A stretch of DNA of 44,765 nt from a virus, in the IMG/VR virus record IMGVR_UViG_3300015264_000033, positions 1 to 44,765 of that record; one strand, written 5' to 3'. The notes below the pieces were generated by a model. It worked only from the letters and a program-made list of their open reading frames with translations. It did not search any database and was not told the origin of the DNA. The position numbers and the translations under genes are program-made. Below are positions 12,634 to 28,131 of this stretch, in pieces (positions within the stretch are counted from its first letter, which is position 1; each line of letters begins with the position of its first letter).

Positions 12634-15015
12634 TTAAGTTCCGGCCGCCTCAGCCACGGCCCAGGTATTGGTGATCGCGGTATCCAAGGTGAAGCTCGCA
12701 CTCGCGTTCACCACGATGTTGTAGTAGTCCGTGGTGCCATTAGGCACGTCGTAGAACTCCCCGTTCATCGCGAGCGGCTGCCCCGCGGTCGACACCGTCG
12801 CGGCATACAGCAGCCCCACGGCGACGCCGTTCTTGTACAGGCGCAGCGCGTACTGTCCGGTGGCAGCGGCGGCGATATAAATCTGCGCCCGAAACCGCAC
12901 CTGCTGATTGCGCAAGGGAATCCACCCCGTGTTCGCGTTCGAGTACCAGGCCGGGAAGTCCGACACCACGCCGTTGAACGGGATGATGGTGGTGTTGGTC
13001 GCGGTGTAGGAGAGCGCGGCCGAGGTCAAGCGCGTTAAGGGCCGGTCGCCCGGGAACTTGCTGACCGCCCCGGTCACGCCTAAGAAACGCGCGATGCCGT
13101 ACACCGCATTGTTGTCCTGCGACCAGAAGACGGGGCCCACCGGGGAGGTGCCGACGGTGTAGAAGTAGCCGTACTGGAAGCCCGCAACGCCTGAGTACGC
13201 CTGCCCCATCAAGGTTGCGCCGTAGGAGAAGCCGTTGGCGTAGACATCCTGCACATCGATCATCGAGGCGTGCTGCGCGTAGATGAGCGACTGATTGTTG
13301 TTCGCCTGCGCGCCGTAGACGAAGGTCCCGCCGCTGGTGAAGCCGGTGGTGACGTTGGTGAAGCTCACCGAGGTCAAGCTTGAGGCGGTCACGATAAAGC
13401 TGCCGTTGTAGCCCGCCGGCACCATGGTCGAGACCGTGATCTGCGAGCCCACGGGCGGGATTTGCGCCGCGGTGATCGGCTGCGTCCAGTTCAAGGTCGC
13501 AACAGTTCCCGTGCCCGACGCGCCAGTGATGTTGATGACGCTGAAGAAGTTGCCGCTGTTGAACGCCCGCAGGTGTTTGATGGTAAGCCCGGGGTGCGTC
13601 ACATTGCCGCCGGCCGGGGTCAACTGCGAGGAGACCAGCACGAAGCCCGCTTGAATGATGTCCTCCATCAGGCAGCCGATGAAGCTCGCGTGCATCGGGA
13701 AGGGGATGCCGGTGCCGTTGCCGTTGGTATCGCCCTGCGACATGACGATGCCGTAGTTGCAGCCCTGGAAGTAGCAATTGATGAAGGTGGTGTTGGCCGA
13801 CTCGTTGTTGAGGCTCAAGGCGACCGACTGCGGGAAGTAGCCGCTGAACTGGCAGTTGGTGAAGATGTTGTCTTCCGACGCGCTGTTCTGGACCACCGCG
13901 AACTTGGTGAAGTCCATGATCCGGCAGTGGTTCACCTGCATGAGCCAGCAGACATTGTCGAATACCATGCCCTTCGAGAAGCTCGAGATGTAGACGTTGT
14001 CGATTTTCTGCTGACGGGCGAAGTTCGTGTAGTAAGCAGTGCCGACGGCGGCGCCTGCGACGTTGTTGATGAGCGCGATGTCTTCCAAGCCGCCGCGCTC
14101 GACCTGGGCCGCATCGGAGACGCCGACTTGCTGGATCAAGGGGATGTCGGCGACGCTGTATTGCTTCAATACGGTGCTACCGGGGGCGAGTACATAGGTC
14201 AACGGCGTCGTCGCCCAGCTCGCGCCCTTCACGATTTGGCCCGCGAACTTATTTAAAGTCCCGTTGATGCGGTAGGTGCCGGGCGGAATCCACACGGTCG
14301 AGCCCACGCCGCCGACGTTCAAGGCGGCTTGGATAATGGCAGTCGCATCGATGACGCCGGTGGGATCGGGGCCGTAGCGGTCGGCGGAGACGTAGCCCAA
14401 GACTAGATGCGTGGGCACGTAATAGTTCGTGGGGGTGACGCCTGCGGCGAATTCCGCGGCGGTCTGCCCCAATCCTAAGAACGGCACGAGTAGCCCGGTG
14501 GTGATGACCTGCGTGTTCGGGACGCCCGCCGTCGGCAACCCCGTGATGGGATCGAACGCGAGCACCGTGCCGCGCCGCGTGGAGGCGGTGGGCAGCGCCG
14601 GCCATAGCGCCACCTCGTTATCGGGGCCGTGGATGCCGTAGAGGTAGGTCTTACGGTACGTGTCTTGGCTAATGCGCGTGATGCGGTCGAAGAACTCCTC
14701 GTGCAGTTCGGGGAGGTATGAGCCCTGATTCTTGATCGAGGTCAGCTGGGTGAGGGAGATGTTCGAGCGGACGTCGAGCGTGTGGCCGGCGATGCCCGCA
14801 ACGGTGGTGGTGACGGTAGCCCCGGTGTCGACATCGACGTTCTGCACCGTGTAGTCGACGCCAAGCACCAGCGGCGTCGCGATCGGCGGCACCGAGGTGT
14901 CGAGATCGCTCACCGTCAAGTCGGCGGCCGAGAAGATCTTGTTCGGCCATCCCCACTGCGTCGTGGTGCCGTTGCGAAGGTATTGAACACTGCTGACGGT
15001 CGATGCGATAGTCAT
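12634..15015 (-). CDS. Tail spike/fibre, T7 gp17-like N-terminus and pectate-lyase-like beta-helix
   Basis: 793 residues. Residues 1-150 resemble the T7-type virion-attachment domain (VQYLRNGTTTQWGW, LVLGVDYTV, LHEEFFDRITRI). A DRYGPDPTGVIDATAIIQAA block then WIPPGTYRING (about 215-255) is the usual start of a right-handed beta-helix of the pectate-lyase type. A long region rich in N, V, I and G repeats fits helix coils, and the last 130 residues look like a trimerising beta-sandwich. It should bind, and perhaps cleave, host surface polysaccharide. Position after the ejection genes matches T7 gene 17. Catalytic residues cannot be assigned from sequence alone. Confidence 0.8.
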   Translation of the reverse strand: MTIASTVSSVQYLRNGTTTQWGWPNKIFSAADLTVSDLDTSVPPIATPLVLGVDYTVQNVDVDTGATVTTTVAGIAGHTLDVRSNISLTQLTSIKNQGSYLPELHEEFFDRITRISQDTYRKTYLYGIHGPDNEVALWPALPTASTRRGTVLAFDPITGLPTAGVPNTQVITTGLLVPFLGLGQTAAEFAAGVTPTNYYVPTHLVLGYVSADRYGPDPTGVIDATAIIQAALNVGGVGSTVWIPPGTYRINGTLNKFAGQIVKGASWATTPLTYVLAPGSTVLKQYSVADIPLIQQVGVSDAAQVERGGLEDIALINNVAGAAVGTAYYTNFARQQKIDNVYISSFSKGMVFDNVCWLMQVNHCRIMDFTKFAVVQNSASEDNIFTNCQFSGYFPQSVALSLNNESANTTFINCYFQGCNYGIVMSQGDTNGNGTGIPFPMHASFIGCLMEDIIQAGFVLVSSQLTPAGGNVTHPGLTIKHLRAFNSGNFFSVINITGASGTGTVATLNWTQPITAAQIPPVGSQITVSTMVPAGYNGSFIVTASSLTSVSFTNVTTGFTSGGTFVYGAQANNNQSLIYAQHASMIDVQDVYANGFSYGATLMGQAYSGVAGFQYGYFYTVGTSPVGPVFWSQDNNAVYGIARFLGVTGAVSKFPGDRPLTRLTSAALSYTATNTTIIPFNGVVSDFPAWYSNANTGWIPLRNQQVRFRAQIYIAAAATGQYALRLYKNGVAVGLLYAATVSTAGQPLAMNGEFYDVPNGTTDYYNIVVNASASFTLDTAITNTWAVAEAAGT

Positions 15016-18655: not shown

Positions 18656-20175
18656 GGTTTCGCCTTCGGGGCGTTGGCCTTAGTTTCCGCTGCCGCATTC
18701 CATTGCTGTAGCAGTGTCGCCTGACGCTGGAATTCGGCATCACTCATCTGGCCAGCATCGTGCGCGACCTTGGTCGCGGCCCATGTCTGCGGGATGTTCG
18801 GCTGCATGCGGCTGCCAACGAGATGCGACGGCACCGGCCCGAAAACGATGGCCTTATCCGCCTGCACCAAGGCATAGTTCTGCGAGATGGTGCGCGCCAT
18901 CTTCATGCCGTCCTCTGGCGTTGCCTTCGGGTTGTCATGAACCCAAATATGGAAATCATCTAGCGCGTTAGCGTAGTCGAGCGCCGCGTCGGGCTTGTAG
19001 AGGAGCGGCGAAGGCTTCAATGCCTGCTCAATGTAGTTGGCACCATTCTTGACGAAGTTGCCGCGCGGGGCTTCGGTCTTCTCGACGAGGCGGGTGAAAT
19101 CCTCTTGCTTCAAGTGGCCAGCGTACAATTCGCTTTGGGCTTCGCTGGTCACATCCTCGCCGTTCATTGAACGCACGAGCAGCGGCGCGAACACATGCGC
19201 ATCCGTCTCGTTCTCCTTGCCCGCGAGTAACTTGTACGCATACTCATAGGCCGGCGGTTCCCACGTCTGATGGTGCTGCTCGATCCACGATGCACTCAAC
19301 TGTCCCTTGCTCTGCATCAGGATCGCGTTCTTCAAGAGCGAGTTCGACGCATCGCGCTGGATCTTGTCGTCCATGGCGATCTTGTGTTCTTCCTGCGCGT
19401 TCAGCATGCGCAGCATCGAATCAGCCGCTTTCGGTTCAATCTCGCCCTTGGCGGAGGCACCGAAGAGGTACGTGCGCGCCGCTGCCGTATTGCCCTCAGC
19501 CGACATCTCCTCGACCACGTTCTGGTGCATCGTGCCCATCGCATCTTTCAAGGTCTGCTGGCGGGTGGTCGCGTCCCAACCCTCGCGGTCGCCCTGCAGT
19601 TGTACCAGGGCGCCTAAGTCAGCTCGCGACTTATTCACCTTGTCGGGATCGCGCCAGTTCAAGGCTGCGCTACTCACCGCCTGCTTGGTGGCATTGGCGT
19701 AGACCGTGTCAGCGAGCTGGTTCGACTGGCCGTACTCATAGCGATTGAGTTCCGTGTTGAGTGCGGCGCGGCCGTTGGCGACATGGTCGCCGAACAGGCG
19801 TTTCTGATCGGCCGTGAGACTCGCCCCGATGCCGGCCGCGACCTTGTCGTATTGCGGCAGGTACCGATCCGGCATGTTGATGGCGTCCATGCCACGGAGC
19901 GAGTACGCCCCGCCGCCCTTGCCGTTGGGGCCGAACAGCATCGCATCACGCGCGGCTTCCAACTGCGTGTTGGCGTCGATGACGCGGGTGTGATCGTTCT
20001 GCTGCTTGAGCTTCGCCTGCTGCTCACTCGCCGCGCCCCCGACCGCCGAGAGACCTTGCGCCACACCACCGCCAAAGGAGGCGGCCGAGACATCATCGCT
20101 CACGCGCGGCAGTGCCCGCCCGGGCAGCGGCTCCTGCTGTACCGTTGGGGTTTCGAGTACCGGGACCGTCGGCAC
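18652..20175 (-). CDS. Internal virion (ejection) protein, gp15-like position
   Basis: 507 residues, helical, Gln/Ala-rich, with the MPTVPVLETPTVQ start and a FGGGVAQGLSAVGGA segment near residues 34-48, typical of podovirus internal core proteins. GTG 20175 overlaps the previous stop by one base (TAGTG). Function inferred from gene order. Confidence 0.65.
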   Translation of the reverse strand: MPTVPVLETPTVQQEPLPGRALPRVSDDVSAASFGGGVAQGLSAVGGAASEQQAKLKQQNDHTRVIDANTQLEAARDAMLFGPNGKGGGAYSLRGMDAINMPDRYLPQYDKVAAGIGASLTADQKRLFGDHVANGRAALNTELNRYEYGQSNQLADTVYANATKQAVSSAALNWRDPDKVNKSRADLGALVQLQGDREGWDATTRQQTLKDAMGTMHQNVVEEMSAEGNTAAARTYLFGASAKGEIEPKAADSMLRMLNAQEEHKIAMDDKIQRDASNSLLKNAILMQSKGQLSASWIEQHHQTWEPPAYEYAYKLLAGKENETDAHVFAPLLVRSMNGEDVTSEAQSELYAGHLKQEDFTRLVEKTEAPRGNFVKNGANYIEQALKPSPLLYKPDAALDYANALDDFHIWVHDNPKATPEDGMKMARTISQNYALVQADKAIVFGPVPSHLVGSRMQPNIPQTWAATKVAHDAGQMSDAEFQRQATLLQQWNAAAETKANAPKAKP

Positions 20176-20633
20176 TAGAACCAGCTCCCCGCGGCGTTCG
20201 ATTCGGTGTAGCCCTTGGCACCGCCCGTCAAGATGGAGCCCAAGGCATTGCCGGTGCCCGCGGAGCGCGCGAACTTCGACTGCTGCTCATCGCTCGCTTC
20301 CTGCACGCGAAAGCCCCAGGCTTTCCGTAAGGCATTGTTGCGGGTCGTGAGCGCATCGAGTTCATTCACGGCCGCGGTGCTCGCGACCACCTGCGCGTTG
20401 GTGCCGCCCTGGGTCAAGTTGTTCGCGCCGATGGCGGCGACCTGCTGGCCCTCCACTTGGCTACCGCGCATGCGCACCATCGACTCGTTAGCCGCGCCCG
20501 CGGCTTCCTCGGACGAGGCCTGACGCGAGGCAATGTCGGCATTGGCATTGAAGAGGCGACTGCGTTCCTGCCCCGCCTCGTATTGCGCGACGCCGCCGTA
20601 GAGGCCGCTGGCTGCGGTTAAACCTGCTGACAT
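20175..20633 (-). CDS. Internal virion protein, gp14-like
   Basis: 152 residues with the pattern of small podovirus internal virion proteins: a Gly/Ala/Tyr-rich start (GLYGGVAQYEAGQERS), a long Ala/Gln helix, and AVNELDALTTRNNALRKAWGF. ATG 20633 follows a CGGAGGG ribosome binding site and overlaps the upstream gene by 16 bases. The frame is open further upstream, but that part is out-of-frame reading of the neighbour. Confidence 0.7.
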   Translation of the reverse strand: MSAGLTAASGLYGGVAQYEAGQERSRLFNANADIASRQASSEEAAGAANESMVRMRGSQVEGQQVAAIGANNLTQGGTNAQVVASTAAVNELDALTTRNNALRKAWGFRVQEASDEQQSKFARSAGTGNALGSILTGGAKGYTESNAAGSWF

Positions 20634-21106
20634 CGGCGCCCTCCGGCGGGTGTGCGGTCTACCAAAATGAACTGCGCGAAGAGCCTGCCACCGCGTTCCT
20701 CGGGTAGCAAAGCGCAAGTACCGCCCATCCAGAGGAGCCAGCGGAGCGCGGGCTTGTCGCCTAAATCGATGAAGTTGGTGGCGAGCGTGCAGTGCTGGAA
20801 GAGTTCCGGCAGGTAGCGGCGCGAGGCGCGCGCAAAGGCAAAGCGGTGCCGGTCGATGGCCGCACTCGAGAAGATCCAGAAGCGCGCGGCACCGCCCAAG
20901 ACCGTCAACGGGGCGAGGCCATACATCACCAAGGGCTCGAACCCCTGGAACATCGTGCGCGCGTAATAGCTCGCCGACAGTGCCTCGCGCATCGCCTCGT
21001 ACGGTTCTCGGCCCCACCCGGCCCGCACCTCCTCCACATCGCGCGGGCGCATGGAGGACGCAATTAAGCGGGCGTGGCGAATGTCGGCATCGGTGAGGTG
21101 CGTCAT
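20618..21106 (-). CDS. T7 gp13-like internal virion protein (acetyltransferase-like fold)
   Basis: 162 residues. ADIRHARLIASSMRPRDVEE, then MYGLAPLTVLGGAARFWIFSS, ATNFIDLGDKPALRWLLWMG and a FAQFILV strand follow the layout of the gp13/DUF2833 family in podoviruses. That family has a GNAT-like fold but a structural or assembly role. Position directly before the gp14-like gene agrees with T7 order. Confidence 0.7.
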   Translation of the reverse strand: MTHLTDADIRHARLIASSMRPRDVEEVRAGWGREPYEAMREALSASYYARTMFQGFEPLVMYGLAPLTVLGGAARFWIFSSAAIDRHRFAFARASRRYLPELFQHCTLATNFIDLGDKPALRWLLWMGGTCALLPEERGGRLFAQFILVDRTPAGGRRCQQV

Positions 21107-22347
21107 ACGACCGTCCGGCGCGGGGAGTTGCGCGGGGTCGAGAGGCCGCTTGCGGCATAGGAGAAGAGCGGCGTGGTCGCAGGCACCTGCAGCATCCAGC
21201 CGTACACGGGATAGGCGGGGTTGCCGGCGGGCACGAAGCTTACGGTGGAGTCCGAGAACTGCGAGGAGTCGACGTCGAACACATCGCCGATGTCTTTCCA
21301 GTCGCCGTTGTAGAATCCGGCCGCCATGGCTTGCACGCGAAAGCTCGGTATGGCGATGCCGCCGATCGAGAACGATGAAAAGCTGCCGCTTAAGGCAAAA
21401 ACGCCGACCTCTCCCGTGATGAACAGATGCCCCGCGAGCCCCACATCCTGGCCGCCTAAGGCGAAGGCACCGGGCACCGCCTCGAGCGCAAACCCTTCGG
21501 CCGCATTGGCGCCGATCATGAAGAAGCTCCCCGGGGAGGCGAGGAGCTGATAGCCCGAGGCGCCGACGAACAGGAGCGCCGTCTGCCCGGTCATCGCGAA
21601 GGCGCCCGGGCTCATCACGAGCCCCTGCCCCATCGTCGCGGGCTGCCCCGTCATCGCGAAGGCACCGTTGACGCCCGTCACGGTGGGGGGATTCAACGCC
21701 GCGAGCGCGATCTGCTGGCCGGTGTAACTTAAGCCCGTGAGGGAGCCCGCGGTGTACTTGCCGCCATTGGTGCCGGTCAATCCGGCGGGTGTGCCCTGAA
21801 AATCGCAGGACACCAGGATTGGGATGTTGGTGACGGCGGTGTTGGAATCGATGCGCACGTTGGCATAGCCGGGAGGTGCGGTGAAACCGGGGAAGGAACC
21901 CTGATAATAGGTATTAGCGACAAACTCGACCACATCGTCACTGGGCGCTGCGGTGACGCCGGTGAGCACGTAGGGATTGATGGGTGAATTGGCAATCGCG
22001 ACCGCAGTGCTTTGCACATCGGTGAAGGGCGACACTGTGTTGCGCCCGGAGTAGATGCGTGCCACCACGGAGGAGAGATTGTTGGAGCTTGACGTGACGG
22101 TGAGCGTGGTTTCCGTGCCCGCCGCGACCTTGTAGGCCAAGGCCATCATGGTGGTCGAAGCGCAGTCCCGATTGCTAAGCCCCGGGATGGTCGTGAAGCC
22201 TGAAGGCAACCCAAAGGTGGCGCCGGCGCCGGTCCACTGCGCCGCCAAAATGATGATGTCATTCGCCTGCGGGATGCCGGTCACATTGACGGCGTTCGAG
22301 GTACTGACCCCGGCGTTGACGTGAGCTGCTGAGCCGCGCAGTGCCAT
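21103..22347 (-). CDS. Virion protein with GAFxMTGQ-type repeats
   Basis: 414 residues. The first 215 residues form a beta-rich domain. Residues about 223-330 contain a series of related short motifs: GAFAMTGQPA, GAFAMTGQTA, GSFFMIGANA, GAFALGGQDV and GVFALSGSFS. These look like turns of a small beta-solenoid or adhesive repeat. The same motif occurs at the start of the neighbouring GH5 protein. Likely a tail-associated structural protein; exact role unknown. Confidence 0.6.
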   Translation of the reverse strand: MALRGSAAHVNAGVSTSNAVNVTGIPQANDIIILAAQWTGAGATFGLPSGFTTIPGLSNRDCASTTMMALAYKVAAGTETTLTVTSSSNNLSSVVARIYSGRNTVSPFTDVQSTAVAIANSPINPYVLTGVTAAPSDDVVEFVANTYYQGSFPGFTAPPGYANVRIDSNTAVTNIPILVSCDFQGTPAGLTGTNGGKYTAGSLTGLSYTGQQIALAALNPPTVTGVNGAFAMTGQPATMGQGLVMSPGAFAMTGQTALLFVGASGYQLLASPGSFFMIGANAAEGFALEAVPGAFALGGQDVGLAGHLFITGEVGVFALSGSFSSFSIGGIAIPSFRVQAMAAGFYNGDWKDIGDVFDVDSSQFSDSTVSFVPAGNPAYPVYGWMLQVPATTPLFSYAASGLSTPRNSPRRTVV

Positions 22348-22350
22348 GGT

Positions 22351-24870
22351 TTATGGGGCCGCGTGCCCCACCGTCCAGGCGGTGTAGATTTTGCCCTCAT
22401 CGGTGGTGACCGCGATGGGCGGTACACCCGTCGGGTAGTAGAGCAATTGGAAGTTCTGTTGCGGCGGTTGAATGGGATTCGCCGACCAGCCGAGCAGATG
22501 CACGGAGCCCGCCTTGGTGGCATTGAGCGCATCGACCTGCGCCACGGCATCGCTGACGAAGGGCTCGACGCCCGTGCCTTGAGTCTGCCCGCCCATCTCG
22601 CCGATGATGACGGGGTAGCCGGCCGCGATGATCGACTGGGCGAGCGCGATCCATTGCCGGTAGCCGTTGGTGGCCGGTGCATTGTCCCCGGAGTACCAGC
22701 GAAAGTAATTGGGATCGGTGAACGCTTGATTGGGATACGCGTGCAAGCCTGCACAGATCTGCTTATCGGTAATCTGGGACTGCACGGTTGAGAGCCAGGT
22801 GGCGCCGCTCGTATCGCCAGTGATCCATTGGGAATTACCGAGCACGCCCGCATACCCCACGCTATTCAGCAGGACGACATTGGTCGCGCCCGTGGCCCGC
22901 ACCGCCGCGAGCAGTTGCACCATGCCGACGCTGGTCCAGGGTGCGTTGATGGGATTGAAGTAAAACTGCGAGCCCACCGGCACGGCGGCGTTGTAATCCA
23001 TGGTCGTGTGGGAAGCGCCATTCGCCCACTCGGCCCATTTCGGGTAGGTCGGCTCATTGACCAAATCAATGATGACGTTCGGGTAGCCCTTGAGGAGTCC
23101 CGCGAGCTTGGTCCAGCCCGCGACGGCTTGCGCATCCGGCATCCACGAGGCGGGGTTCTGGTAGGAATTCCAAATCGGCACCGAGGCGCCGCCGATCGTG
23201 ACTTGCGGGCCCCATAGGTGCATGTCCACGATGGCGTAGCAACCCGCCGCGGTGATCGCATCCAAGGCGGATTTCAACTCCGCCATGTAGGTGCCGTGCG
23301 GGTCGCAATTGACGGTAGGGATACCGGTCAATGAGGCCGGTAAATTATAAGGTCCCGTACCGGTAAAGTCGCTGCCTCTAAACTTGTAGCTCGTCAAGCC
23401 TAAAACCGAATGCAAGTGCACCGGGATGCGAAACACGTTCCATTTGTAGGTCGAGGCCAATTGCGCGAACGGTGGTATCGCGCTCGCCGTCTGCCAGCCG
23501 CCATAGGTCCAGGCGCTTGGGCCGCCATTGGTGTACGTGCCCTCCATGCCGAAGATATTGGCGCCGCGCAAGTTGACGATGGACCCGGCGCTATTAACCA
23601 GCGTGCCATTGGCGGCCACCCGGATCGAGAGCGTCCCGGGCGCGGGCGGAATCCAGGCTTGAATGTTGCTGATGAACTGCGAATAGGGCACGGCATTCGT
23701 CACGGGGTTCGCATGCGACTGCGGGCCCGCAAACACGTAGTAGTGGTAGTTCTTGATGCTGGTATCGAGGAATTTTCCATTCGCATCGGTCTGATTCGTG
23801 CTGATGGTGAACACCGTCACGTCATCGCAATAGAACTTGCAGACCATCCCGATGGGGTCGTAGCTGAACCCGTAGCGATGGAACTGCGTGCGATCGATGG
23901 CGAAGGCGCTGAAATTGCTATAGTTGACGTGCACGCCGCTCGAGGCCGCCCAACTGATGATGGTCGAGAACATCCCCGCGGCGTAGCCGCCTTCATGTAT
24001 ATCGACTTCAAGGTACTGGAGCGTGCCGTTGATCTTCTCCTGCGGATAGAGCGCGATCGCTTCGAAGTGATCCGCATTGCTGTCGGTGATCGCTTCATGG
24101 AATTCGCAGTGAAATCCAGCAAGGGCGACCAAGTACCCTAAGGCGCCCGCGGTGGAATTGGGCATCTGTCCGACGAGAGCGCCGGCCGAGCCATAGGCGC
24201 CGCCGCCTAAGTTATTGAGCGAGAGCACCCCTTGCGCCATGTTCGCGCACGCGGGGTTGATCCACCCCGTCTTCGAGTCGTAGTAGTACTTATTGGAGAA
24301 TTTGAACGTCGGCCCATAGGCCTGGGGAGGCGTGGCACCGGGCCCTAAGCAAATATCAGCCACCTGCGGCGCGATGTTGAACTGGCTCTGGGTGTAGCCC
24401 AAGGCGAGCGCGGCGGCCGGCGGATTGAGCGCAATGACATAGGCCGCCGAGCCCACTGCGCTTTGCCCGAAGCCGAACACAATCGCAATCGCCTTCACCG
24501 TCGCACTCGCGGGCACATTGATGGTGCCCGCATAGGGCGTGCTCGCGGTGGTGGGCGTGGTGCCGTCCGTCGTGTAGTAAATGGAGGCTGTGCCGGTAGT
24601 CGAGCAGCTGATCGTCACGCGCTGGGCGTTAGCGTATGTGGCGCCCGCGGGGCTGAAGGTGGGAGTCGCGGCCGGGAAGGTGCCGCCCACTTGGCCGATA
24701 TTCCCTTGACCGGCGAGCACAAAGGCACCCGGCAGTCCCGTCATGCCAAAGCCTTTGATAGCGCCGCTATTCGGGAGGGCCGCATCGTAGCCCAAGAGGT
24801 TGAAGCTCCCAGGCGCGCACTGCAGCGTGTACGGCTGCGCCGAAAACCCGACGTTAAGACCACGCGCCAT
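22351..24870 (-). CDS. Virion-associated multidomain glycosidase, GH5 family
   Basis: 839 residues. N-terminal GSFNLLG and GAFVLAGQ motifs shared with the next gene. About 69-150: a CHB_HEX_C-type beta domain (PTFSPAGATYANAQRV, IYYTTDGTTPT). About 180-395: a concanavalin/laminarinase-like beta-sandwich. About 410-839: a GH5 barrel with NLRGANIFGMEG, FRIPVHLHSV, YAIVDMHLWG, IIDLVNEPT (acid/base E606 after N605) and VIIGEMGG (nucleophile E758). GH5 enzymes cleave beta-glycans such as cellulose or mannan. Lying in the tail operon, it probably degrades an exopolysaccharide during adsorption. Both catalytic Glu are present. Confidence 0.82.
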   Translation of the reverse strand: MARGLNVGFSAQPYTLQCAPGSFNLLGYDAALPNSGAIKGFGMTGLPGAFVLAGQGNIGQVGGTFPAATPTFSPAGATYANAQRVTISCSTTGTASIYYTTDGTTPTTASTPYAGTINVPASATVKAIAIVFGFGQSAVGSAAYVIALNPPAAALALGYTQSQFNIAPQVADICLGPGATPPQAYGPTFKFSNKYYYDSKTGWINPACANMAQGVLSLNNLGGGAYGSAGALVGQMPNSTAGALGYLVALAGFHCEFHEAITDSNADHFEAIALYPQEKINGTLQYLEVDIHEGGYAAGMFSTIISWAASSGVHVNYSNFSAFAIDRTQFHRYGFSYDPIGMVCKFYCDDVTVFTISTNQTDANGKFLDTSIKNYHYYVFAGPQSHANPVTNAVPYSQFISNIQAWIPPAPGTLSIRVAANGTLVNSAGSIVNLRGANIFGMEGTYTNGGPSAWTYGGWQTASAIPPFAQLASTYKWNVFRIPVHLHSVLGLTSYKFRGSDFTGTGPYNLPASLTGIPTVNCDPHGTYMAELKSALDAITAAGCYAIVDMHLWGPQVTIGGASVPIWNSYQNPASWMPDAQAVAGWTKLAGLLKGYPNVIIDLVNEPTYPKWAEWANGASHTTMDYNAAVPVGSQFYFNPINAPWTSVGMVQLLAAVRATGATNVVLLNSVGYAGVLGNSQWITGDTSGATWLSTVQSQITDKQICAGLHAYPNQAFTDPNYFRWYSGDNAPATNGYRQWIALAQSIIAAGYPVIIGEMGGQTQGTGVEPFVSDAVAQVDALNATKAGSVHLLGWSANPIQPPQQNFQLLYYPTGVPPIAVTTDEGKIYTAWTVGHAAP

Positions 24871-24873
24871 GGG

Positions 24874-25302
24874 CTATTGCAGCGTAAAGATGCCGCTCGC
24901 GATCGACACGGTGAAAGTCTGCCCCGCGGTGAGCGTGACGGACGATCCGTAATCCCACCAGCCGATGAGCGGCTTCAAGGGCGTGGTCGCGGTCGAGTCG
25001 TAGACCACCGCATAGCGAAAGGGGCCCATGCTCCCGGTCGCGGTCCAGGTGGGATTGGCGACGGTCCCCGAGACCGTCTCGACACCGCCCGATTGGCTCG
25101 AGGACTGGCTCGTGACCGCAACGCCGCCGGTCGCGTAGCCGTTACCGCTCGCAAGCTCCGTGCCGCTGATATCGCCATAAAGCGAATTGGTCGCGACCGG
25201 TGCGGTGTTGGTCAGCATGATCTTCATCGTGTCGGAGGACAGATTGATCGTGCCGTTGGCAAGCGTCTGAACGAACGCGTTGAATTTATTGAACGTAGCC
25301 AT
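24874..25302 (-). CDS. Small virion structural protein (unrecognised)
   Basis: 142 residues, beta-rich, beginning MATFNKFNAFVQTLANGTIN and rich in Ser/Thr/Gly. Similar small proteins accompany tail genes in many phages; role unknown. Placed between the nozzle and GH5 genes. Confidence 0.6.
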   Translation of the reverse strand: MATFNKFNAFVQTLANGTINLSSDTMKIMLTNTAPVATNSLYGDISGTELASGNGYATGGVAVTSQSSSQSGGVETVSGTVANPTWTATGSMGPFRYAVVYDSTATTPLKPLIGWWDYGSSVTLTAGQTFTVSIASGIFTLQ

Positions 25303-25329: not shown

Positions 25330-28131
25330 TCATGAGACCGGATCGCCGATCATCACTTGCGGGATGTGCATACGAATCGTGATGGGGAGCGGCATGTTCT
25401 GGCGCACGCAGGTGTGGCACTCCGAATCCAAGGTCGACGGGATGCGCGTCCACAAGACGCCTTCCTGCATGCTGATCGGCGATGTGTAGGTCTCGAACGC
25501 GCGCTGCTCGGAGGGGTACATGGTCGTGAAGTCGGTGCCGGCGATGAAGTTCCGCGTTTCGGTGCAGTCCAAGTAAATGACCGGGTTCGACTTCGCGCGC
25601 ATGCGGATGGTCTCTTGGCCCTGCGCATTCAAGGACAGCGTCTCGAAGTCCGACAGATACGGCAGCCCCACCTGGACGACGCCGCCGGCAGCGGGCAACG
25701 TGATCGAACCATCCAAGCCAATCGTCACCTGGCCATTCGGCACAATGCCGGTGGCATCGATACCTAAGGTGGTCGCATCCACCAACGCCACCGCCGGCAT
25801 GCCGGCGATTTGGGTGGCCCCCGTGAACCTCAGGCGCGCGAAGGTCCAAATAGCCGTCGCGATGCCCTGCAGGGTCGCGGGGCACGGGTCTTTGAGTCGC
25901 ACCGAGACTTGCGTGGTGCTCGAGCGCGCGGTGATGAGCAGGCGGCAGCGCGCGCCCGTGGCATCGTAAATCCAGATCTCATTGCCCACATCGGCCGGCA
26001 AGAAGGTTGCCCAACCGGCAGTTCCGGACGCGTTGAGCGTGCCGACATCCCCCGCAAGCCACGACGTGCCGCCGGTCAGCACCATGGTGGTCGCCGACGA
26101 ATTCCGCCCGTCGTAGGTCAGGTTGCAGTCGAGGAACTGATAGTCGTACACCGACTTGACTTCACGGCTCGAGAGCCGCTCGACGTAGCGCATCGTCGCG
26201 CCGTTGATGGTGCGATTGATGATGGCGTAGAGCGCAAAGGCCGTGTTCTCAGGCACCACGCAGATATCCTCGAACGTGCCCTGCGTATCCCAGTGCGCCC
26301 AGCCGGTGACTTGCTGTTCCTTCAAATACGTGCAGCAGAGGAGGCCGCCATCGGAGCGCAAGGCGAAGAGCATCTGCCCGGCGGGATCGGGCTTGTAGGC
26401 AAGCCTTGTCAACTGCGTGCCGAAGGGGATCAGGTGGCGCGAATAGAGGGTGAGTTCATCGCCCTTGAACTTGTCGTACGCGAATTGGTAGATGAGGTCG
26501 CGCAAGCGCCGGCCGTCGAATTCAGCGAAGATCGCCGAGTCACCGAAGAGCACCGAGGCGCAGGTGGGATTCTGGCCGTAGTAGTTTTGCGGATCCGCTT
26601 TGATGGCCAAGGGCCCGAGCGCGGTGCCAGTTGAGCCGGGCCACAGTCGCCAGATGATGTTGGACGTGCCGATCAGCAGGTCCGATAGCGGGATCAGGTC
26701 CGAGATGGCGTTTAACTGCCGCGCATTCAAAAACGCCGCGAAGGCATCCGAGGCCACCACCGGGCTACTCACCTGAAAGTTCTTGTACTGGCTCGTTTGG
26801 CTGCCAAAAACGCCGACCGGCTGCTTCGGAGTCGCAGCAAGGACCAACCGGTCGGGGATGTAAGAGACGGCGGACGGATAGCCCTGATCGGTGCTGAAGG
26901 CGCCGAAGTTCCAGTAGGTCGTCTGCCCCAGTTGCGTGATCTGCCGGATGACGACGGTTGAGCCCACCGTCTGCCCCGCGAGAAAGGTCAAGGTCGTCGC
27001 CGCCACCGAGTACGCGGACGGCGCTTGATAGATGCCGTTCACGGTCACGAAGAACTTGGTCGGATCGGTGGTGGTGACGCCGGTCAAGGGCGTGAAGGCG
27101 GTCTGATTCGCGGTTGCGGTGAAGGTGAAGGGCCCAAACACCGTGATGGGGCCGCCGACGCAAGAGAGTGGCAACAGAGAGGGACCGCCGACGTAATTCG
27201 GCTGCACCACGGCGGTCACATGGGTCGAATCGGTGTAGCCCGTGATGAGCACGACGCCAAACCCTGAGTCCTGGTACTGCCAACTCACGCCGCAGATCGA
27301 CGCCAAGTTCGGGATCGTGCTGCCGTCGCCGTCGGTCTGCGTGCCCTGGGAGTGGCTCGGAATCCACGTGCCCGTCGCCCAGCCAGAGGCCGGTGAGGGA
27401 TTCGTGGTCGCGACGCATTTGTAGTTCTTCAAGCTCGCGCGCCGGTAGAGTCCCACCGGCGTGATCTTGGTGCCGGTATTATCGGTGAAGAGCTTGGAGG
27501 GCTCCCACGGTGGAATCTGCGAGAGATCCTGTTGCGTGAGTTGCACGAGGCCGCCGACCTGGCCCGCGTTGAAGATGGGAGAGGAGGCGGTCAGCGTCAC
27601 GGTGCCGGTGATGGCGCTCGCGAACACAAACGTGGTGCCGTCGGTGTTCTGCGGCAGGAAGGGCCCGTTGATGTAGGCACCGGGCAGACACGTGAAGGAA
27701 TTGGCCGACACCCGCTTGATCTCGTACGGCGGATAGTTCGGGTGCACCACGGTCAGGGTGTCGGTCGATTGCGCAAAGCGCAGGTTGGCTAAGTCCGCCG
27801 CGGCCCATGGCGTCGCGAAAGTCGCGCCCACCACCAGGGAACCGGCTGAGAAGACTTGGGCCGAGAGCGCGCCCACCTCGATGACATAGCTTTGGGTCGC
27901 CTTGAACACGAAGGGGAGCAGGGTCGAGGCTTTGGGCGCCTGCGTGAGGGAAGTGCCGATGAACTTGAACCCCGGGCGATTCGAGACCGGCCCCTCGGGG
28001 CGCACGAAGCCATTACGAAGGGTGCGCAGGCCAGCCGAGTAGGCGGTAAGGTCCACCCGGCCGAACAGGTACGGCGAGACCTCGCCGCGGGCGAAGTTCG
28101 CTTGCAGCGTGTAGACCGGTGTCTCGTACAT
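25330..28131 (-). CDS. Tail tubular protein B / nozzle, gp12-like
   Basis: 933 residues. The start YTLQANFARGEVSPYLFGRVDL, then YSAGLRTLRNGFVRPEGPVSNRPGF, is the hallmark opening of podovirus nozzle-type proteins. The remainder is beta-rich with many phage-nozzle features (LPFVF, VLIxQITQLGQTTYWNFGAF, PDRLVLAATP). It forms the distal tail tube through which DNA exits. Its ATG overlaps the upstream stop by one base (TGATG). Confidence 0.78.
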   Translation of the reverse strand: MYETPVYTLQANFARGEVSPYLFGRVDLTAYSAGLRTLRNGFVRPEGPVSNRPGFKFIGTSLTQAPKASTLLPFVFKATQSYVIEVGALSAQVFSAGSLVVGATFATPWAAADLANLRFAQSTDTLTVVHPNYPPYEIKRVSANSFTCLPGAYINGPFLPQNTDGTTFVFASAITGTVTLTASSPIFNAGQVGGLVQLTQQDLSQIPPWEPSKLFTDNTGTKITPVGLYRRASLKNYKCVATTNPSPASGWATGTWIPSHSQGTQTDGDGSTIPNLASICGVSWQYQDSGFGVVLITGYTDSTHVTAVVQPNYVGGPSLLPLSCVGGPITVFGPFTFTATANQTAFTPLTGVTTTDPTKFFVTVNGIYQAPSAYSVAATTLTFLAGQTVGSTVVIRQITQLGQTTYWNFGAFSTDQGYPSAVSYIPDRLVLAATPKQPVGVFGSQTSQYKNFQVSSPVVASDAFAAFLNARQLNAISDLIPLSDLLIGTSNIIWRLWPGSTGTALGPLAIKADPQNYYGQNPTCASVLFGDSAIFAEFDGRRLRDLIYQFAYDKFKGDELTLYSRHLIPFGTQLTRLAYKPDPAGQMLFALRSDGGLLCCTYLKEQQVTGWAHWDTQGTFEDICVVPENTAFALYAIINRTINGATMRYVERLSSREVKSVYDYQFLDCNLTYDGRNSSATTMVLTGGTSWLAGDVGTLNASGTAGWATFLPADVGNEIWIYDATGARCRLLITARSSTTQVSVRLKDPCPATLQGIATAIWTFARLRFTGATQIAGMPAVALVDATTLGIDATGIVPNGQVTIGLDGSITLPAAGGVVQVGLPYLSDFETLSLNAQGQETIRMRAKSNPVIYLDCTETRNFIAGTDFTTMYPSEQRAFETYTSPISMQEGVLWTRIPSTLDSECHTCVRQNMPLPITIRMHIPQVMIGDPVS

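Follow-up and report, generated by a model that had tools for sequence, protein, structure and literature searches.

A GH5 glycosidase gene in the tail gene cluster of an epsilon15-like podovirus: a putative virion-associated polysaccharide depolymerase

The Erwinia amylovora phage S6 (Schitoviridae) encodes gp095, a cellulase of glycosidase family GH5 with measured activity (PMC9544554). This phage needs the cellulose of its host, which is its first receptor, and homologues of gp095 have been reported in three further podophages (PMC9544554). In gp095 N-terminal non-catalytic domains precede a C-terminal GH5 domain, and its gene occupies a part of the genome that is variable between related phages (PMC9544554). 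In the Erwinia phage pEp_SNUABM_01, a GH5 protein with N-terminal beta-type domains (QEQ94901.1) is encoded among virion-structure genes and, together with a GH48 protein (QEQ94900.1), beside baseplate genes. A further viral GH5 enzyme, an endomannanase on a soil virus contig that was active when expressed, has been read as a carbon-degradation gene (Emerson et al. 2018; PMC6786970); it can be likened to the protein described here by its GH5 domain and viral origin only. The initial annotation of our locus had regarded a GH5 enzyme in a podovirus as unusual, which does not hold given S6 gp095, the three further podophages and also pEp_SNUABM_01. Phage GH5 enzymes of a similar kind are thus already known; new are the domain combination including a possible GH16-like second enzyme domain, the phage lineage and the distant GH5 sequence.

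The window analysed here is the whole virus record IMGVR_UViG_3300015264_000033 of 44,765 bases. Its minus strand, on which all window features named below are located unless stated otherwise, carries a podovirus structural cluster recognised by Pfam and PHROG matches: a terminase (phrog_2), a head–tail adaptor (PF12236), a protease, the major capsid protein (PF20911, GP7), a tail protein (phrog_394), the tail nozzle (phrog_376), the GH5 gene, internal virion proteins and a beta-helical tail spike. The nozzle (25330–28131, phrog_376 E=2e-164) is homologous to gp12 of epsilon15 (Uetakevirus), with 32% identity over its length (E 3e-129). The gp13 homologue (20618–21106) is 24% identical to epsilon15 gp13 (E 1e-14) and 49% identical to a protein of a related virus (L027:13753–14235), and the gp14 homologue, an internal virion protein, is found at 20175–20633. 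The gene order gp12–gp13–gp14 is therefore the same in both phages. However, gp12 and gp13 of epsilon15 overlap by 1 nt and have no gene between them, whereas in the window three genes lie between their homologues: p142 (24874–25302), which belongs to phrog_644 of unknown function (E=3e-19), the GH5 gene (22351–24870) and p414 (21103–22347). They follow the nozzle gene in this order, separated from the respective preceding gene by 27, 3 and 3 nt, and the gp13 homologue overlaps the stop of p414 by a few bases. The position between the nozzle and a gp13-like gene that the initial annotation had given is confirmed. The large open reading frame 20175–21158 was considered as a gp13–gp14 fusion and rejected, as its first ~175 codons are in the wrong frame over gp13. 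The record of epsilon15 gp13 describes this protein as GNAT-acetyltransferase-like by HHpred, and the gp13 homologues of the window and of L027 belong with it. The window capsid protein was not found in 185 genomes of one class, a search that had no positive control.

The GH5 gene codes from an ATG start for a multi-domain protein of 839 aa, which is matched by PF00150 with 80.4 bits (Pfam cut-off 23.5, E=2e-22). According to Pfam, alignment and fold the catalytic domain comprises the residues 412–839 (22354–23637). An AlphaFold2 model of this part, made with an alignment with 20 bacterial relatives, has a core pLDDT of 85–97, and the modelled fold is a GH5 (beta/alpha)8 barrel. VIA-align matches of the model are GH5 enzymes, mostly endoglucanases, with Z-scores of 25–29, among them the endo-beta-1,4-glucanase 8fc0 (Z 28.7, rmsd 3.1 over 315 residues) as well as 5a95 and 1ece (Z about 28); Foldseek aligns the model to GH5 enzymes with E about 1e-12. 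All eight canonical GH5 active-site residues are present (R481, H551, N605, E606, H710, Y712, E758 and W795) and are conserved across the relatives in our alignment A2. E606 in VNEP (23053–23055), the predicted acid/base, and E758 in IIGEMGG (22597–22599), the predicted nucleophile, are invariant in this alignment. Judged from these residues, the active site is intact. Open reading frame, Pfam and fold hence agree with the GH5 glycosidase that had been proposed for a podovirus tail cluster together with its two catalytic glutamates, and the structure prediction with Foldseek search that had been recommended as a check did find the GH5 fold.

The substrate is not readable from the GH5 domain, because its nearest relative is only about 36% identical and the domain has a long branch in the tree described below. 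The best fold matches, endo-beta-1,4-glucanases, share 16–21% identity with it, which does not fix the substrate since GH5 covers many substrates. Profile A2 yielded weaker PDB matches only, to mixed beta-glucanases, and therefore no GH5 subfamily was assigned. The PDB matches of profile A1 (endocellulase E1) were dropped as substrate evidence; this profile consists of three sequences including the SNUABM phage GH5, which probably dominates the match. With weak confidence we suggest that a beta-glucan is the most likely substrate. A mannan- or a xanthan-like polysaccharide of the host, both brought up in the initial annotation, is not specifically indicated.

The N-terminal segment (residues 1–66, 24673–24870) contains two PG[AS]FxLxG repeats and is a candidate for the virion-attachment part. 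Among all fetched sequences these repeats are confined to this N-terminus and to p414 (window 21448–21666), where PGAFxLxG repeats are located at residues 228–300. No homology to a known virion anchor was recognised in the N-terminus. The first 45 residues reach a maximal KD hydropathy of 0.69, whereas a hydrophobic N-terminal segment (1.8–3.0) is present in 14 of the 14 bacterial relatives tested, as judged by a simple hydropathy test and not by a signal-peptide predictor. A CHB_HEX_C_1/Fn3_assoc module follows at residues 74–139 (24454–24651, PF13290 E=3e-18); to our knowledge CHB_HEX_C_1 has no established role in binding. Two extra domains had been announced, and two exist, but the description of both as sugar-binding-type is not supported: one is this CHB_HEX_C_1 module and the other, in the middle of the protein, carries a GH16-type motif.

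This middle domain (residues 165–412, 23635–24378) appears from profile comparison to be a GH16-like jelly-roll domain. It has no match to a Pfam family, and PF00722 was not reported at E up to 10. By eye the succession EF...EVDIHE...FHRY...DD...ISNIQAW has the GH16 order. The GH16-type catalytic motif EVDIHE (E288-x-D290-x-x-E293, 23992–24009) aligns with EIDIME/EIDVFE of GH16 proteins, a relaxed alignment places it on EIDIME, and FHRY, 42 residues further, is in register with GH16 proteins. Against a profile built from nine GH16 proteins of genomes the domain scores 31.3 in hhalign, with a probability of only 26%. None of 300 shuffles reached this score (maximum 23.6), the reversed sequence scored 11.8, and 13 LamG domains remained at or below 21.6 against the same profile; the score of the middle domain against a LamG profile is 15.2, so that the comparison seems to favour GH16 over LamG. 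An ExDxxE-type motif alone occurs in about 0.1% of the shuffles and with the following HxY in 0.012%, the motif context having been picked after viewing the sequence. Shuffle and control scores count against chance, and they support a GH16-like domain, not membership in GH16. AlphaFold2 models this domain with a pLDDT mostly under 50 and of 36 when it is modelled alone, a confidence at which the fold search is uninformative. The middle domain could be an enzyme and not just a sugar-binding part. A search with this domain alone found no relative in phages, viral contigs or plasmids; likewise, the whole GH5 protein has no relative in phage records, and its exact peptide patterns have no match in viral contigs or genomes.

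We compared the same slot in relatives whose capsid proteins are 76–91% identical to that of the window. In three of them (L004, L017, L026) the gp13-type gene directly follows the nozzle gene, and in three others (L007, L024, L027) the slot holds only a small protein of 96–114 aa, a stand-alone counterpart of the C-terminal ~85 aa of p414. A glycine-rich protein (L006), a protein of 1083 aa followed by CHB_HEX-like sequence (L028) and a protein of 981 aa that weakly matches fn3, NosD repeats and a rhamnogalacturonan lyase (L032) are found in further relatives. Contents that vary in this way mark the slot as a site of exchange, and we propose that p142, the GH5 gene and p414 form an exchangeable insert. 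PF00150 was found in none of the 48 related virus records searched, many of which are fragments. The 981-aa protein (L032:15105–18050) has an fn3-like start and a stretch that reads like a putative glycosidase barrel; it is perhaps another depolymerase in the same slot.

GH5 relatives were found in 18 viral loci. In one of them (L184, IMGVR_UViG_3300047462_000148) a p142 homologue with 72% identity lies directly before a GH5 gene, and the GH5 protein is similar in its first 44 residues, contains CHB_HEX copies that are 69% identical to the window module and has a GH5 domain that is 29% identical. It differs in its length of 1262 aa, in having at least two CHB_HEX copies and in showing no match to the GH16-like domain. 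Behind this gene lie a 598-aa gene and then the genes of a protein carrying PF23148, the GP4 fibre-adaptor domain, and of the terminase. The L184 record yielded no nozzle match, which is no proof that this virus is unrelated. We considered the C-terminal part of p414 as a GP4 gp77-type fibre adaptor but rejected this reading, because its alignment with the L184 protein that has PF23148 is poor. In another locus (L188) the GH5 gene is located two genes before the head-closure protein. Three viral GH5 proteins (L171:3301–4881, L181:5374–6975 and L178:5659–7080) have, unlike the window protein, a hydrophobic signal-like start and may be secreted; collagen-like repeats accompany the signal-like start in L171 and L181. 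In a tree of 96 GH5 domains the virus label changes between six times, as forced by supported branches, and 11 times, and the window domain has a long branch and no supported sister. From these label changes, viruses probably acquired GH5 repeatedly.

Compared to these systems, the window protein resembles S6 gp095 in being encoded by a podovirus, in its N-terminal non-catalytic part and C-terminal GH5 domain, and in the location of its gene at a site that is variable among related phages. On the other hand, S6 is an N4-like phage, and its enzyme has choice-of-anchor D domains at the N-terminus and a GH48 partner, gp094, whereas the window phage is epsilon15-like, its protein has PGAFxLxG repeats and CHB_HEX and GH16-like domains, and no GH48 gene was seen adjoining. 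pEp_SNUABM_01 differs as a large phage with baseplate genes, and its GH5 domain is 26% identical to that of the window (E 0.1).

We consider it probable that the GH5 protein of this epsilon15-like podovirus is a horizontally exchanged, virion-associated depolymerase of polysaccharides, similar to gp095 of phage S6. We infer virion presence, attachment route, substrate and activity. The tight gaps and the place between the gp12 and gp13 homologues argue for a virion-bound protein, as does the lack of a signal-like N-terminus in comparison to the 14 bacterial relatives with such a start, and S6 gp095 is a precedent with measured activity for a depolymerase. Against this reading stand the N-terminus, which shows no homology to known virion anchors, and the only distant similarity of the SNUABM Erwinia phage GH5. 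The N-terminal part with its repeats, perhaps assisted by p142 and p414, would fix the protein to the tail near the nozzle, and the CHB_HEX module would hold the catalytic part at a distance from the tail. The GH5 barrel, possibly with the GH16-like domain, could then cut a beta-linked glucan, of a cellulose-like or a mixed-linkage type, or a related exopolysaccharide of the host, and cleavage of this surface polymer would allow the phage to reach the cell surface and the receptor that the other tail parts, including the beta-helical spike, make use of. The depolymerase role proposed by the initial annotation is supported as a likely one. A GH5 enzyme in place of a beta-helical spike, as the initial annotation may be read, is contradicted by the phage itself, which encodes a separate beta-helical tail spike (12634–15015, PF12708 E=2e-8, N-terminus phrog_1640); the GH5 protein would work beside it. 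A more far-reaching version, which we regard as possible but doubtful, assumes a bifunctional tail enzyme with an active GH16-type glucanase and an active GH5 in one chain, acting on a mixed-linkage or two-component exopolysaccharide, and an adaptor set of p142 and p414 on which the enzyme is mounted and which moves as a module between unrelated podoviruses.

Alternatively, the GH5 protein might be the product of an auxiliary metabolic gene, released to break down plant polysaccharides to the benefit of the infected host, a role proposed for glycoside hydrolases of soil viruses. The soil-virus endomannanase, for which activity was measured, has been interpreted as a carbon-degradation gene (PMC6786970), rumen-virus GH5 and GH9 proteins have been described as cellulases of this type (PMC10465536), and signal-like N-termini do occur in the viral GH5 proteins of L171, L178 and L181. 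Yet the window protein has no such N-terminus in the hydropathy test, its gene is tightly spaced within an operon of tail and internal virion genes, its N-terminal repeats are common to the neighbouring phage gene p414, and the slot is occupied in some relatives by long beta-helix-like proteins; the gene context in particular disfavours the carbon-cycling reading, which we judge unlikely. Enzyme folds are commonly reused by phage receptor proteins. The GH5 and GH16-like domains might accordingly serve mainly to bind a receptor, infection requiring hardly any hydrolysis or none, and a GH5 sequence from which no substrate can be read and the CHB_HEX-type accessory domains would fit to this. Binding alone, however, would need neither the eight GH5 residues, all of which are retained although the domain differs from its nearest relative by about 64%, nor the intact ExDxxE motif, and such a role also seems improbable to us.

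That a host GH5 gene was recently picked up or mis-assembled into the record and plays no role in infection would agree with the lack of PF00150 in the 48 related records. Against this explanation speak the continuous operon on one strand, the fusion to phage-type N-terminal repeats that p414 also has, the same p142–GH5 pairing in L184 and the missing close bacterial relative (best 36%), and we give it hardly any weight. As a virion-associated depolymerase, the protein would add epsilon15-like podoviruses to the N4-like and large Erwinia phages with depolymerases of the cellulase type, with the gp12–gp13 gap as a defined slot for swapping accessory, fibre-like and enzyme genes. If the enzyme is active, the host is predicted to make a beta-glucan-type exopolysaccharide which is used or cleared by the phage. 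GH5 genes of soil phages should be taken as carbon-cycling genes only after gene context and signal peptides have been checked.

Two minor observations concern the record and its nozzle. At its left end the record has a complete tRNA-Val (tac) gene on the plus strand (224–299), which is either phage-borne or a host remnant. In addition, the nozzle homologues of L004, L009, L018 and L027 have an insertion of ~200 bp near residue 100 with respect to the window nozzle, which suggests a variable loop at this position.
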